From the IMG/VR virus record IMGVR_UViG_3300002835_000229, positions 1 through 57,309 of that record: 57,309 nucleotides of DNA, one strand, 5' to 3'. This document shows, one piece after another, positions 3,032 to 7,590 of this stretch. The DNA is from a virus. A program made the translations under genes and the position numbers. Positions within the stretch are counted from its first letter, which is position 1, and each line of letters begins with the position of its first letter. Under the pieces are notes generated by a model that was not told where the DNA came from, did not search any database, and worked only from the letters and a program-made list of their open reading frames with translations.

Positions 3032-3991
3032 ATGAATTACAAAAGTTTGGCAAGAGAAATCATTAATGAAATGGTTGAGGAGAAAAACCTTAGATTATAT
3101 GGTTTTGATTGGGATGATAACATTTTGAAAATGCCAACTAAAATATATTTAAAAAATGATAAGGGTAGTGTTGTTGGGATGCCAACTGATGACTTTGCAG
3201 AATACAGACATCTTATTGAAAAAGAACCTTTTGAATATAAAGGCGATACGATTGTGGGATTTGATGATGAGGCTTTTAGAGATTTTAGACATTCCGAAAC
3301 ATTTTTAACTGATACCAAAATTGCTATTGAAAAGAATCGAAAGTCCCCAAGTTTTAAAAAGTTTAAAGAAAATTTAATTTATGCAAACCCATTCTCAATA
3401 ATTACCGCAAGAGGACACAATCCAAACGTACTTAAAAAAGGGGTTAAATTATTTATCTATATGGTTTTATCTCCGGATGAAAAACAAATAATGGTAAAAA
3501 ATATAAAAAATTCTTTTAAACATGAGGAAATTTTTTCGGATAACTTTTTAAGAAAATTAAACACATTAGATAATAATCAAATAATTGATTTATACCTGGA
3601 CGAAAAGGGCGATTACTATCCGGTGTCCTCAAAAGAGTTTGGAGAAAAATTTGGTGTGGAAGTTAGCGGTGGTGCGGCAAACCCGGAAGAATCTAAAAAA
3701 ATTGCACTTTTAGATTTTATTTCAAAGTATGATGATTTAATTATGGGTGGTAAGTATGTTAATACTTCATTAGGATTTTCTGATGATGATCCTAAAAATG
3801 TTAAAGCTATGATTAATTATGTAGAAAATGAATTATCTAATATGTATCCAGAAGTTAAATTTATTATTTATGATACTTCAGAAGGAGGATATAATAAAAT
3901 TCATATAGAAGCTAATAAAGAAGAAAGTGATGAAGAAGTTATGCTTGAAAGTTTAATTAAGAGAACAATATTGAAAATTAAATCAAAGTAA
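3032..3991 (+). CDS. HAD-superfamily hydrolase-like protein
   Basis: A 319-residue protein with all four HAD landmarks in order: FDWDDN (residues 25-30, nucleophile D26 and D28), FSIITARGH (121-129, T125), a KK pair near 222, and GFSDDD (248-253) as the acidic metal-binding motif. The family dephosphorylates nucleotides, polynucleotide ends, sugars or proteins; the substrate cannot be told from sequence. A basic tail (last ~20 residues) follows. It sits alone between two terminator-separated structural genes, sheath and tube, so it is probably made late. It could act on nucleic acid ends or could be an inactive structural relative, but the intact motifs favour an enzyme. Confidence 0.75.
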   Translation: MNYKSLAREIINEMVEEKNLRLYGFDWDDNILKMPTKIYLKNDKGSVVGMPTDDFAEYRHLIEKEPFEYKGDTIVGFDDEAFRDFRHSETFLTDTKIAIEKNRKSPSFKKFKENLIYANPFSIITARGHNPNVLKKGVKLFIYMVLSPDEKQIMVKNIKNSFKHEEIFSDNFLRKLNTLDNNQIIDLYLDEKGDYYPVSSKEFGEKFGVEVSGGAANPEESKKIALLDFISKYDDLIMGGKYVNTSLGFSDDDPKNVKAMINYVENELSNMYPEVKFIIYDTSEGGYNKIHIEANKEESDEEVMLESLIKRTILKIKSK

Positions 3992-4062: not shown

Positions 4063-4551
4063 ATGGCTGATTTATTAATGAAAATGCCAGTTCCGTACGA
4101 ACCCAAAAGACAGAACAGGTTTATTGTAAGGTTTCCTTCTAGTTTGGGTATTAATGAGTGGTTCGTTGAAAGTGCATCAAGGCCATCAATTAAAGTAGGT
4201 TCAACTGAAATTCAATTTTTAAACACATCAACTTACGTTGCTGGTAGATTTAACTGGGATCCAATTACGGTTAAGTTCCGTGACCCAATCGGTCCTTCAG
4301 CGTCACAAGCATTAATGGAATGGATGCGTCTATGTGCTGAGTCAGTTACTGGTCGTATGGGTTATGCAGCTGGTTACAAAAAGAATGTGGATCTAGAAAT
4401 GTTAGACCCAACAGGAGTAGTTGTTGAGAAATGGATTTTAGAAGGTACATTTATGACTGATCTTAACTTTGGGTCATTGTCTTATTCTCAAGATGCGTTG
4501 GCTGATATTTCGGCAACCCTAAGAATGGACCGTTGTATTTTAGTTTACTAA
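4063..4551 (+). CDS. Tail tube protein (T4 gp19-like)
   Basis: The 162-residue protein matches the T4 gp19 family in length and layout. The N-terminal PYEPKRQNRFIVRFP segment, the VESASRPSIK strand, the FNWDPITVKFRDPIG core and the C-terminal ISATLRMDRCIL strand are the typical tube-protomer pattern. It polymerises as stacked hexameric rings inside the sheath and forms the DNA channel. It is a single-gene unit: a TATTTAT element upstream and a strong terminator directly downstream suit high-level late expression. Confidence 0.93.
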   Translation: MADLLMKMPVPYEPKRQNRFIVRFPSSLGINEWFVESASRPSIKVGSTEIQFLNTSTYVAGRFNWDPITVKFRDPIGPSASQALMEWMRLCAESVTGRMGYAAGYKKNVDLEMLDPTGVVVEKWILEGTFMTDLNFGSLSYSQDALADISATLRMDRCILVY

Positions 4552-4651: not shown

Positions 4652-5422
4652 ATGGAAACAAATGTTAATAATTATGGACAAATGAATTTTAATCTACCTC
4701 ACGATGTTGTTAGATTACCTTCAGGGGGAATATTTTACCCAAGTAAAAAGAAATCTGTAAAAGTTGGTTATTTAACCGCTTCGGATGAAAATACATTGTT
4801 AGGTATGGATGGTAGAAAATCTGTTAAAGAAAGTATTATTTTACCATTATTAAGAAATAAAATTTATGAGCCTGATTTAAGACCTGAAGAACTATTAGAT
4901 AGTGATATTGAAGCAATTCTTATCTTTTTAAGAAATACCTCATTTGGTCCAGAATATAATATATCAATTAATGACCCAGAGACAGGTAAATTATTCGACG
5001 CTTCAATTGTTTTAGATGAATTAAACATTAAAAAAACAAATAATCTTCCATCTGATGATGGTACATTTACTACGGAATTACCAAAAAGTAAGGCGACAGT
5101 TAAATTAAGACCATTAACACTAAGAGATAGTGTTGAAATAGATGCGATAATTGATAATTACCCCCAAGGAAGAACAACACCATTAATTACTGTACGATTA
5201 AATAAAATGATAGTTGAGGTAAATGGAAGTTCTGATAGAGGAGAGATTGCGAAGTTTATTGAATCAATGCCAATTATAGACTCTAAATACATAAGAAGTT
5301 ATCTTTTTGATAACGAACCTAGATTAGATTTAATAAAAGAAGTTATCGCCCCGTCCGGAGAAAAAGTTATGGTAAACATTGCTTTTGGGGTGGAGTTTTT
5401 TCGGCCTTTCTTCGCAATATAA
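4652..5422 (+). CDS. Tail assembly chaperone / T4 gp26-like baseplate protein, zero-frame product
   Basis: The 256-residue protein resembles the T4_baseplate (gp26-like) family: the N-terminal RLPSGGIFYP motif, then a strand ending in VGYLTASDENTLLG, and an acidic helical middle. It lies between tail tube and tape measure, where tail-assembly chaperones with translational frameshifts usually sit. The zero-frame ends VEFFRPFFAI, six codons after a TTT TTT CGG site. The +1 frame continues open from there to 5555 (see that entry). I infer it binds the tape measure or helps build the tail initiation complex. Family assignment is fairly likely; the chaperone role rests on position. Confidence 0.8.
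   Translation: METNVNNYGQMNFNLPHDVVRLPSGGIFYPSKKKSVKVGYLTASDENTLLGMDGRKSVKESIILPLLRNKIYEPDLRPEELLDSDIEAILIFLRNTSFGPEYNISINDPETGKLFDASIVLDELNIKKTNNLPSDDGTFTTELPKSKATVKLRPLTLRDSVEIDAIIDNYPQGRTTPLITVRLNKMIVEVNGSSDRGEIAKFIESMPIIDSKYIRSYLFDNEPRLDLIKEVIAPSGEKVMVNIAFGVEFFRPFFAI
5396..5404 (+). other. Candidate +1 ribosomal frameshift site (TTT TTT CGG)
   Basis: Zero-frame codons are GAG TTT TTT CGG. tRNA-Phe (anticodon GAA) on the second TTT (5399-5401) can move one base forward onto TTC (5400-5402), which it pairs with perfectly. The next zero-frame codon is CGG, rare-looking in this AT-rich sequence, which would favour a pause. No extended stimulatory structure was evident by eye. Confidence 0.55.
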
Positions 5423-5555
5423 AACACAATTAATTGATGAATACATATTTCTTGCTAAGATGTTAAAAACATCTTATAGTGATTTTTATCTTATGCCAAC
5501 ATATTTTAGAAAATATGTTATAAATAAATTAATTTCTGAAAACCAAAAAACGTAA
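5403..5555 (+). CDS. Predicted +1 frameshift extension of the tail assembly chaperone (gp51-like position)
   Basis: From GGC at 5403 the +1 frame runs 50 codons to TAA at 5553-5555, coding GLSSQYKTQLIDEY, then a helical segment with FLAKMLKTSYSDFYLMPTYF and ending KLISENQKT. It reads like real protein: amphipathic helices with an aromatic MPTYFRKY motif. It fills what would otherwise be a 160-base gap in a genome that hardly has any. It lacks a good start of its own: the frame is closed upstream at 5373-5375 and offers only TTG codons (5379, 5385) or a late ATG (5460). Fused through the slip at 5399-5402 the product would be 300 residues. Independent initiation at TTG is the alternative. Confidence 0.6.
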   Translation, partial: GLSSQYKTQLIDEYIFLAKMLKTSYSDFYLMPTYFRKYVINKLISENQKT

Positions 5556-5586: not shown

Positions 5587-7590
5587 ATGTTTAGTAATGG
5601 AGATTTAAATGAAAGTGCGAACCAAGGAGCTGAGAATGCAGCTAAAGTAGATACTGGTTCGGTTGGTAAATCCTTTTCTGAAGTTGTCTATGACCCAGTG
5701 GCCGCAAATGGTGTTTTAGGTCTTTTTACCAGTTTAAAAGATGTTACCAAAAATGTTAAAGCTGAAATAGATAGTTTACTATCATTCGCTGAGAATTGGA
5801 AAAGGTTAAAATTTTTAGATACAGAATCTGCCGATATTATTAAATCTCTTGGTCTTGGAAGTCAAAAGGCCGGTGAATTTAGAAAAATGATTGCCGATGG
5901 AGCCGCATCATTTGCGGGTATTGGGTTAAGTGTTGAAAAAGTTGGTGAGACATATCTTGAGATTGCAAGTGCATTTAACACTAATATTTCTGTTGGGGTT
6001 GATGATTTAACAGAACTTGCGGCAACCTCAAAAGTAACCGGTATTGCTGGTAAAGAATTAGCCGCGGCGTTTAGAGGTGTTGGTGTTGACATTGGAGGTA
6101 TAGGACCAAGAATGTTTGAGGTTACTAAAATAGCCAGGGAAAGTGGGGTTGCAGTTAGTGCGGTTGCAAAAGGAGTGGTTACAAATTTAGATAAAATGAA
6201 TATCTATAATTTTGAGGGTGGAGTTAAAGGTCTTGCTAAGATGTCCGCTCAAGCATCTAAGTTAGGTATAGACATGGCAAAAATATTTACGTTAACAGAT
6301 AAGGTATTTAACCCTGAAGGAGCAATTGAAACTGCCGCTGCGTTACAAAGATTAGGAGTTACAACTAATTCTTTATTAGACCCATTAAGATTAATGGATT
6401 TATCACAAAACGACCCTGCGGAATTACAAAATCAAATTGTTAATATGACAAAAGATTTTGTTAGATTTAATAAAGATTTAGGGGAATTTCAAATATTACC
6501 AGGAGAAAAAAGAAGATTAGAAGAAATTGCAAAAGCTTTAGGTTTAAGTGGGGGTGAGTTACAAAAGATGGCTCTAAACGCTTCTAACTTGGAATATAAA
6601 ATGAAACAAATTAAATTCCCTAGTAGTATTGCATCTAAGGAAGATAGGGAATTAATTGCAACTTTATCTCAAATGAATAAAGATAAAGTATCGGGTGAAA
6701 TGGTTGCACAAATAAAAGTTAAACAATTTGATAAAGAAGGTAATTACACTGGTAAAGATGATATGGTTAATGTAACTGAGTTAACTGTAGAACAATTAAA
6801 ACAAATTAAGGAAGACCAAGAACTTAGAGGTAAAAGTATGGAAGATGTTGCTTTTGACCAATTAGGTGAATTAGAAAAATTAAACGCCAAATTTGACCAA
6901 CTCAAAAAAGCTGCGGCATACGGACTATCCTCAAATGACCTTTCTCAAAAAACATATGGTCTTTTAACAACAGGGGCTAGAGAAAAATTATTTAAAGATG
7001 AAAATAACCCTAATGGAATGATTCCAGAATCGGTTTTAAAAACAGAAAACTGGAGAGATATGACCAATAAAATGACATCATCAATTTCTCTTGGGTTTGA
7101 AGAGGCATATAAAAAATTATCAACTATTAATAGTATGGCTGATATTCCCGCTGTTCTTAATGACCTTGGAAATATGGCAATGACTGCTTTAGGTGGATTA
7201 ACTTTTGATAAAGTAATGGCTGAGTTTGAAAAAACAAAAACAGGATCAACAAACGGTATTGTGGGAAATTCAGGTGTAAATACAACAAATGTTAATGCGG
7301 TTAACTCAAACACAACAAACTCAAGTTTAAATAATACTAATAACACAAATGTTAATAATGTTACACCACCAATACCACAAGAATTAAATTTAAATGAAAA
7401 AGTCACGGTTGATGTAAATGTTAATTTAGACCCAGCATCAAAAGACCAGGCGTTAACATCTTTGATGAACCAGGCTCTTACTAAATTCTTTGGACCTGAA
7501 GGTGGAAACCAAAATATTGCGTTCGTATTAAACGAAATTGAAAAACAAAAAACCCAAAATAATTTAGTTCAAAGCAATGTACCTCAATAA
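5587..7590 (+). CDS. Tail length tape measure protein
   Basis: The 667-residue protein is mostly helical, with long Ala/Gly/Val-rich stretches around residues 90-220 (such as GLGSQKAGEFRKMIADG) and charged helices in the middle, as in tape measures. The C-terminal third has an Asn/Thr-rich spacer (residues ~555-600) and then a compact end with PASKDQALTSLMNQAL. It follows the chaperone and precedes the baseplate giants, the usual place. At about 1.5 angstrom per residue the length predicts a tail near 100 nm, close to T4. It would be extended inside the tube and be ejected ahead of the DNA. Confidence 0.82.
   Translation: MFSNGDLNESANQGAENAAKVDTGSVGKSFSEVVYDPVAANGVLGLFTSLKDVTKNVKAEIDSLLSFAENWKRLKFLDTESADIIKSLGLGSQKAGEFRKMIADGAASFAGIGLSVEKVGETYLEIASAFNTNISVGVDDLTELAATSKVTGIAGKELAAAFRGVGVDIGGIGPRMFEVTKIARESGVAVSAVAKGVVTNLDKMNIYNFEGGVKGLAKMSAQASKLGIDMAKIFTLTDKVFNPEGAIETAAALQRLGVTTNSLLDPLRLMDLSQNDPAELQNQIVNMTKDFVRFNKDLGEFQILPGEKRRLEEIAKALGLSGGELQKMALNASNLEYKMKQIKFPSSIASKEDRELIATLSQMNKDKVSGEMVAQIKVKQFDKEGNYTGKDDMVNVTELTVEQLKQIKEDQELRGKSMEDVAFDQLGELEKLNAKFDQLKKAAAYGLSSNDLSQKTYGLLTTGAREKLFKDENNPNGMIPESVLKTENWRDMTNKMTSSISLGFEEAYKKLSTINSMADIPAVLNDLGNMAMTALGGLTFDKVMAEFEKTKTGSTNGIVGNSGVNTTNVNAVNSNTTNSSLNNTNNTNVNNVTPPIPQELNLNEKVTVDVNVNLDPASKDQALTSLMNQALTKFFGPEGGNQNIAFVLNEIEKQKTQNNLVQSNVPQ

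Follow-up and report, generated by a model that had tools for sequence, protein, structure and literature searches.

Frameshifting by −1 is widespread among phage tail chaperones, T4 being excepted in a review of the subject that also lists the haloarchaeal myovirus HSTV-2 as very likely to use +1 (PMC5009743). Like the locus described here, lambda G/GT lies between tail tube and tape measure and is a single gene that yields a short and a long form; unlike our locus, it relies on a −1 shift and belongs to a different protein family (PMC5009743). The T4-like chaperones were, according to papers that cite the work (PMC10885494 and PMC12846349), identified in 2022 (Vladimirov, Gautam, and Davidson, Virology 566:9), and Pseudomonas phage Adele provides a −1 chaperone for comparison (PMC12846349). 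T4 gp26 and gp51 are members of the same protein family as the product studied here, with gp26 resembling its short form and gp51 its long form, but T4 encodes them in two genes on opposite strands and uses no frameshift. In S-CAM8, Bakedbeans, Cygsa01, Atu_ph07, XacN1, and LR756511, finally, gp26-type chaperones carry a −1-frame extension. As at our locus, the C-terminal domain is joined near the same point, and several of these genes slip on a T-rich site (e.g., T TTT TTC); the direction, however, is the opposite one, with the T run in a different phase.

A proven +1 site, UCC_UUU_CGU, is that of influenza A PA-X, which shares with our locus a P-site UUU that re-pairs to UUC and an A-site CGN codon that is seldom used, although the ribosome is eukaryotic, the gene is unrelated, and the E site holds UCC where ours holds UUU (PMC3498833). 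The prfB genes of Escherichia coli and Flavobacterium likewise combine a +1 P-site slip with an adjoining upstream element and a slow A site; there, the element is a Shine-Dalgarno (SD):anti-SD duplex and the slow codon a stop codon, whereas our locus has an intramolecular hairpin and a rare sense codon (PMC8710568). In the Bacteroidota, SD pairing is little used, and prfB still shifts (PMC8710568). When the A-site codon is slow, hairpins that refold behind the ribosome, which act as mimics of the prfB SD:anti-SD duplex, increase +1 and decrease −1 shifting, both in a 70S system and in yeast (PMC6321510, PMC3639245). These systems resemble ours in having a hairpin beside the E site and a slow A-site codon, but their +1 tests used engineered constructs, whereas the hairpin described below is natural and conserved (PMC6321510, PMC3639245). 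For +1 direction in the T4-type chaperone family and a natural upstream hairpin, no report was found in the open-licence papers searched.

The window, i.e., the whole stretch of DNA analysed here, is a 57,309-base IMG/VR virus record. Its chaperone open reading frame (ORF; positions 4652 to 5422 on the + strand, as are all features given below) encodes the 256-amino-acid, gp26-like short form (TAC-N) and comes after the tail sheath and tail tube genes and before a 667-amino-acid ORF (5587 to 7590). It is matched by PF12322 (T4_baseplate; 43 bits, E 5.6e-11, with a curated cutoff of 24.5) and by phrog_150 (baseplate hub; E 1.4e-12). An earlier note on this DNA, made from the sequence alone, had placed it between the tail tube and tape measure genes; this was borne out for the tail tube gene (4063 to 4551) by profile (phrog_4542, E 1.1e-28) and for the presumed tape measure gene by position, the 667-amino-acid ORF having no family match in Pfam and PHROG profile searches. 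As a whole, the locus is in our judgment best explained as one gene that yields a short and a long T4-type chaperone through a +1 shift, a reading of the sequence evidence to which we assign a probability of roughly 0.9.

The end of the zero frame reads GGG GTG GAG TTT TTT CGG CCT TTC TTC GCA ATA TAA. The earlier note had this frame closing six codons after GAG TTT TTT CGG; we count five, followed by the stop (TAA, 5420 to 5422). The +1 frame entered after TTT TTT C is, as claimed, open for 50 codons, from GGC at 5403 to TAA at 5553 to 5555, and constitutes the gp51-C-like extension (TAC-C, 5403 to 5555). On the slippery TTT TTT (5396 to 5401), which is invariant in the window clade, P-site tRNA-Phe can re-pair from TTT to TTC; of the two codons UUU and UUC, tRNA-Phe pairs better with the latter. 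The slow A-site codon would be CGG (5402 to 5404), and its suggested role as a hesitation codon is in keeping with codon usage, CGG and CGC being the rarest sense codons of the window with three uses each. In the window clade, the A-site codon is always CGG, CGC, or CGT and never CGA or AGR; AGA is the common arginine codon, yet the slip-site arginine stays CGN. TGG, found in the A site of other +1 clades (see below), is not rare, with 173 uses in the window. Among the 28 long ORFs of the window, in-frame TTT TTT CGN occurs once. A −1 frameshift on an X XXY YYZ heptamer was ruled out on the basis that neither the window nor its closest relatives have a −1-frame extension, the −1 frame closing after 11 to 13 codons in all of them.

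The same site, which the earlier note proposed to look for in related genomes, was recovered as TTT TTT CGN CC together with the +1 extension in 80 of 80 related viral contigs (57 to 100% protein identity), each with a zero-frame stop a few codons past the site. Over the extension region of 35 nonredundant window-clade loci, the other two frames contain on average about five and four stops and the +1 frame none. The pN/pS ratio of the extension is ∼0.55 when pooled, which is weak evidence, as near-saturated pairs are included. Of the 71 columns in which the amino acid is conserved, only 5 keep one and the same codon, and three of these are the GGG, TTT, and TTT at the site. While coding in two frames explains the invariant CCT and TTC TTC 3′ of the site, it accounts for neither the GGG nor the TTT TTT.

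Equivalent +1 extensions were found in two further clades, named here after Flavobacterium phage immuto (95 loci) and Microcystis phage Mel-JY01 (64 loci), at TTT YTT TGG CC or near variants. Most of these sites read TTT TTT TGG CC or TTT CTT TGG CC and a few TTT CTA TGG CC or CTT TTT TGG CC, and a few loci have TAC in place of TGG. A +1 arrangement is also present in SP-15, LIS04, Streptococcus phage GXN1, RM378, and LR756508. Across the +1 loci, the re-pairing options in the P site are TTT-C, TTT-T, and CTT-T, with TTT-C ahead of CTA. The proposed +1 direction and the re-pairing of TTT to TTC are borne out by the 248 related loci and the T4 genes. Deposited annotations miss or shorten the long forms (immuto and SP-15).

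Slipping at the first or at the second TTT gives an identical protein, and the product cannot tell the two apart. In three loci of the immuto clade (L109, L120, and L131), which read TTT CTA TGG, only the first TTT re-pairs well (TTT to TTC). These CTA variants may thus favor the first codon and GXN1 (TTC TTT CGT) the second, in which case the slip codon, as far as can be read from the sequences, may differ between lineages.

The assignment to the gp26/gp51 type held as well, both T4 proteins and the window ORF matching phrog_150. On the positions of that profile, the ends fall at 235 for T4 gp26, at 280 for gp51, and at 233 to 237 for the zero frame of the window. A profile of the C-terminal extension matched one of gp51 and cyanophage C termini with an hhalign probability of 75% and an E value of 2.5e-5 in a single comparison. 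The phrog_150 positions and this profile comparison together suggest that the two frames of the window correspond to gp26 and gp51. An HMM scan does not reach the C-terminal domain, and profile comparison of small full-length alignments of the fused proteins with gp51 and with gp26 gave nothing. AlphaFold modeled the predicted fused protein (alignment of 37 rows) with a pLDDT of 83, a pTM of 0.73, and a helical C-terminal domain; with two rows, the pLDDT was 37. Among the named matches of this model in BFVD, the best are baseplate hub proteins of T4-like phages, including that of SP-15 (target TM-score, 0.83), together with the gp26 protein of Aeromonas phage 25, while a fold search of the PDB returned no solved structure matching it.

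Immediately upstream of the slip site, RNAalifold predicted, on the basis of 27 window-clade loci, a stem of 14 pairs with a nine-base bulge and a seven-base loop, which lies inside the coding sequence and ends four bases before TTTTTT. The earlier note had overlooked this conserved hairpin. Helix 1 is formed by GCCCCG (5348 to 5353) and TGGGGT (5386 to 5391), the latter containing the GGG codon that all 35 nonredundant loci share; helix 2 is formed by 5363 to 5370 and 5378 to 5385, enclosing the loop (5371 to 5377) and showing compensatory changes at four of its eight pairs. The 5′ arm of helix 1 and the 3′ arm of helix 2 emerged from RNAalifold, pair counts, and the sliding control. In the 27 loci, 91% of the pair cells are paired, and the covariation (0.340) exceeds that of 500 of 500 shuffles and of all slid versions. 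With 35 loci and the same tree, the covariation was 0.345, against a maximum of 0.199 for the template slid over 632 gene positions, and pairing was 92% against a maximum of 68%. Parsimony on these 35 loci gave 16 inferred pair-to-pair double changes, and two of the covarying pairs (30-48 and 33-45) join third codon positions. The four CCCC:GGGG pairs of helix 1 are invariant and hence lend no covariation support of their own; it is this pairing that explains the invariant GGG codon. A covariance model found the hairpin in 47 of 47 window-clade sources tested (67 to 90 bits) and nothing comparable in the other +1 clades, where the best score was 18.7 bits; alignments of the immuto and Mel-JY01 clades likewise showed no hairpin. 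No structure was found downstream of the slip site (z of about −0.15 to −0.37). A covarying natural hairpin 5′ of and next to a +1 slip site is, judging by the papers searched, new here.

The bulge (5354 to 5362), placed by RNAalifold and codon conservation, holds a GGA codon found unchanged throughout the window clade (35 of 35 nonredundant loci), along with a conserved TCNGGA, for which we found no explanation. By eye, some rows of the alignment seemed to allow a crossing helix in which the bulge (TCAGGAGAA) would pair with TTCTTCTGA. In other rows it is broken at positions 20, 21, and 25, and TTCTTC is explained by +1-frame coding; this candidate was dropped.

The +1 shift could be real and the conserved GGGG nevertheless be an internal SD element, as in prfB, rather than part of a hairpin. 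The GGGG does sit at a fixed distance from the site, its GGG codon is present in 35 of 35 loci, and an SD-like element serves +1 shifting in Flavobacterium johnsoniae prfB (PMC8710568). However, the distance from its last G is 5 bases to the first TTT and 8 to the second, compared with 3 to the P codon in prfB; it pairs with an invariant CCCC, and the adjoining helix 2 covaries; the A-site codon is a sense codon, CGG, and not a stop; and SD-like leaders are absent from all 28 long ORFs of the window. We therefore consider an SD element unlikely. The SD-poor leaders fit a host from the Bacteroidota, where SD pairing is little used; two scans of a genome search for the host gave no match. By analogy with prfB and the refolding hairpins, we infer that the hairpin stimulates the +1 shift and takes over the role of the SD duplex.

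The proposed sequence of events would then be as follows. Most ribosomes would terminate at 5422 and yield the short form, while some would pause at the very rare arginine codon CGG. At TTT TTT C, the paused ribosomes would move one base forward, with tRNA-Phe re-pairing from UUU to UUC, and would continue in the +1 frame as far as 5555. The resulting long form, of 300 amino acids, would have a helical C-terminal domain as the counterpart of the end of T4 gp51. The hairpin, ending four bases 5′ of the slip site, probably refolds behind the ribosome, where it would aid the forward step and hinder a backward step on the T run, in parallel to the SD:anti-SD duplex in prfB. By analogy with lambda G/GT, the short and long forms would presumably act on the tape measure protein.

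It is probably the ribosome, rather than RNA polymerase, that does the shifting. Were RNA polymerase to drop one U at the six T's, part of the mRNA would code for the fusion in frame; with one T removed from TTTTTT, the protein (E F F G L) is identical, and the T6 is invariant across the window clade. Six T's are short for transcriptional slippage, however, and runs no longer than three are found in ∼35 immuto-clade loci (TTT CTT TGG), in 5 loci with CTA for the second TTT, and in GXN1 (TTC TTT CGT). Transcriptional slippage would, moreover, leave the conserved rare CGN codon and the hairpin unexplained, and we regard it as very improbable.

That the C-terminal part is instead a separate gene, started alone by reinitiation or at an internal start, might be suggested by the short separate ORFs in deposited annotations (111 nucleotides in immuto and 120 in SP-15) and by the two genes of T4, and the window itself has weak +1-frame starts (TTG at 5379 and an internal ATG). 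The second frame had been described as lacking a good start of its own, and indeed a conserved start codon is absent upstream of the C-terminal domain, while conservation sets in exactly at the slip site. In 52 of the 248 loci, an upstream start is impossible, as the stretch from the last +1-frame stop upstream to the slip site contains no ATG, GTG, or TTG; for 20 of the 52, that stop is found two codons ahead of the site (e.g., the TAG of L067). In-frame fusion of both parts was found in no locus. Together, the start-less loci and the absence of fusions confine the shift to the stretch between the +1-frame stop and the zero-frame stop, which in the tightest loci is some ten codons long. The refuting case named in the earlier note, that of separate genes with strong starts, occurs only in a side branch, that of the T4-type phages with gp26 and gp51 (T4, kaaroe, and avDM3), and there T4 gp51 has its own copy of the N-terminal domain, which means that T4, too, makes a protein with both parts. 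Overall, we give independent initiation of the C-terminal part a very slim chance indeed. An error in sequencing or assembly (in a single genome, a one-base homopolymer error would give the same picture) and decay of the gene both have a negligible probability, since 80 independent contigs share the site, as do phages that have been isolated and sequenced.

With the +1 shift as the preferred reading, T4-type chaperones, best known from phages with separate genes for both forms, would include a large group of phages that uses +1 instead. A single family with +1, −1, and split solutions makes the choice of direction accessible to comparative study, and the hairpin clade is a natural setting in which to ask if an RNA that refolds behind the ribosome is able to drive +1 slipping where SD elements are scarce. 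We lean slightly toward the view that, in phages whose hosts make little use of SD pairing, a conserved hairpin folded behind the ribosome came to drive +1 shifting in place of the SD:anti-SD duplex and that one family switched between −1 and +1 by re-phasing its T run.

Several minor observations were made in passing. In cyanophage S-SCSM1 (L093, 2187 to 2374), the gp51-like part lies in the +1 (or −2) frame with an ATG of its own, whereas the related S-CAM8 (L094) is −1; within the cyanophages, there was either a change of frame or a splitting of the gene. In Rhodothermus phage RM378 (L090, 2352 to 2858), an annotated tail tube gene on the opposite strand directly follows the chaperone gene. 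In the window itself, the tail sheath protein (39 to 2960; up to 973 amino acids) has threonine-rich low-complexity stretches in its N-terminal half, and between the sheath and tail tube genes lies a 319-amino-acid ORF (3032 to 3991) that starts with LYGFDWDDNIL and looks, by eye, HAD-like.
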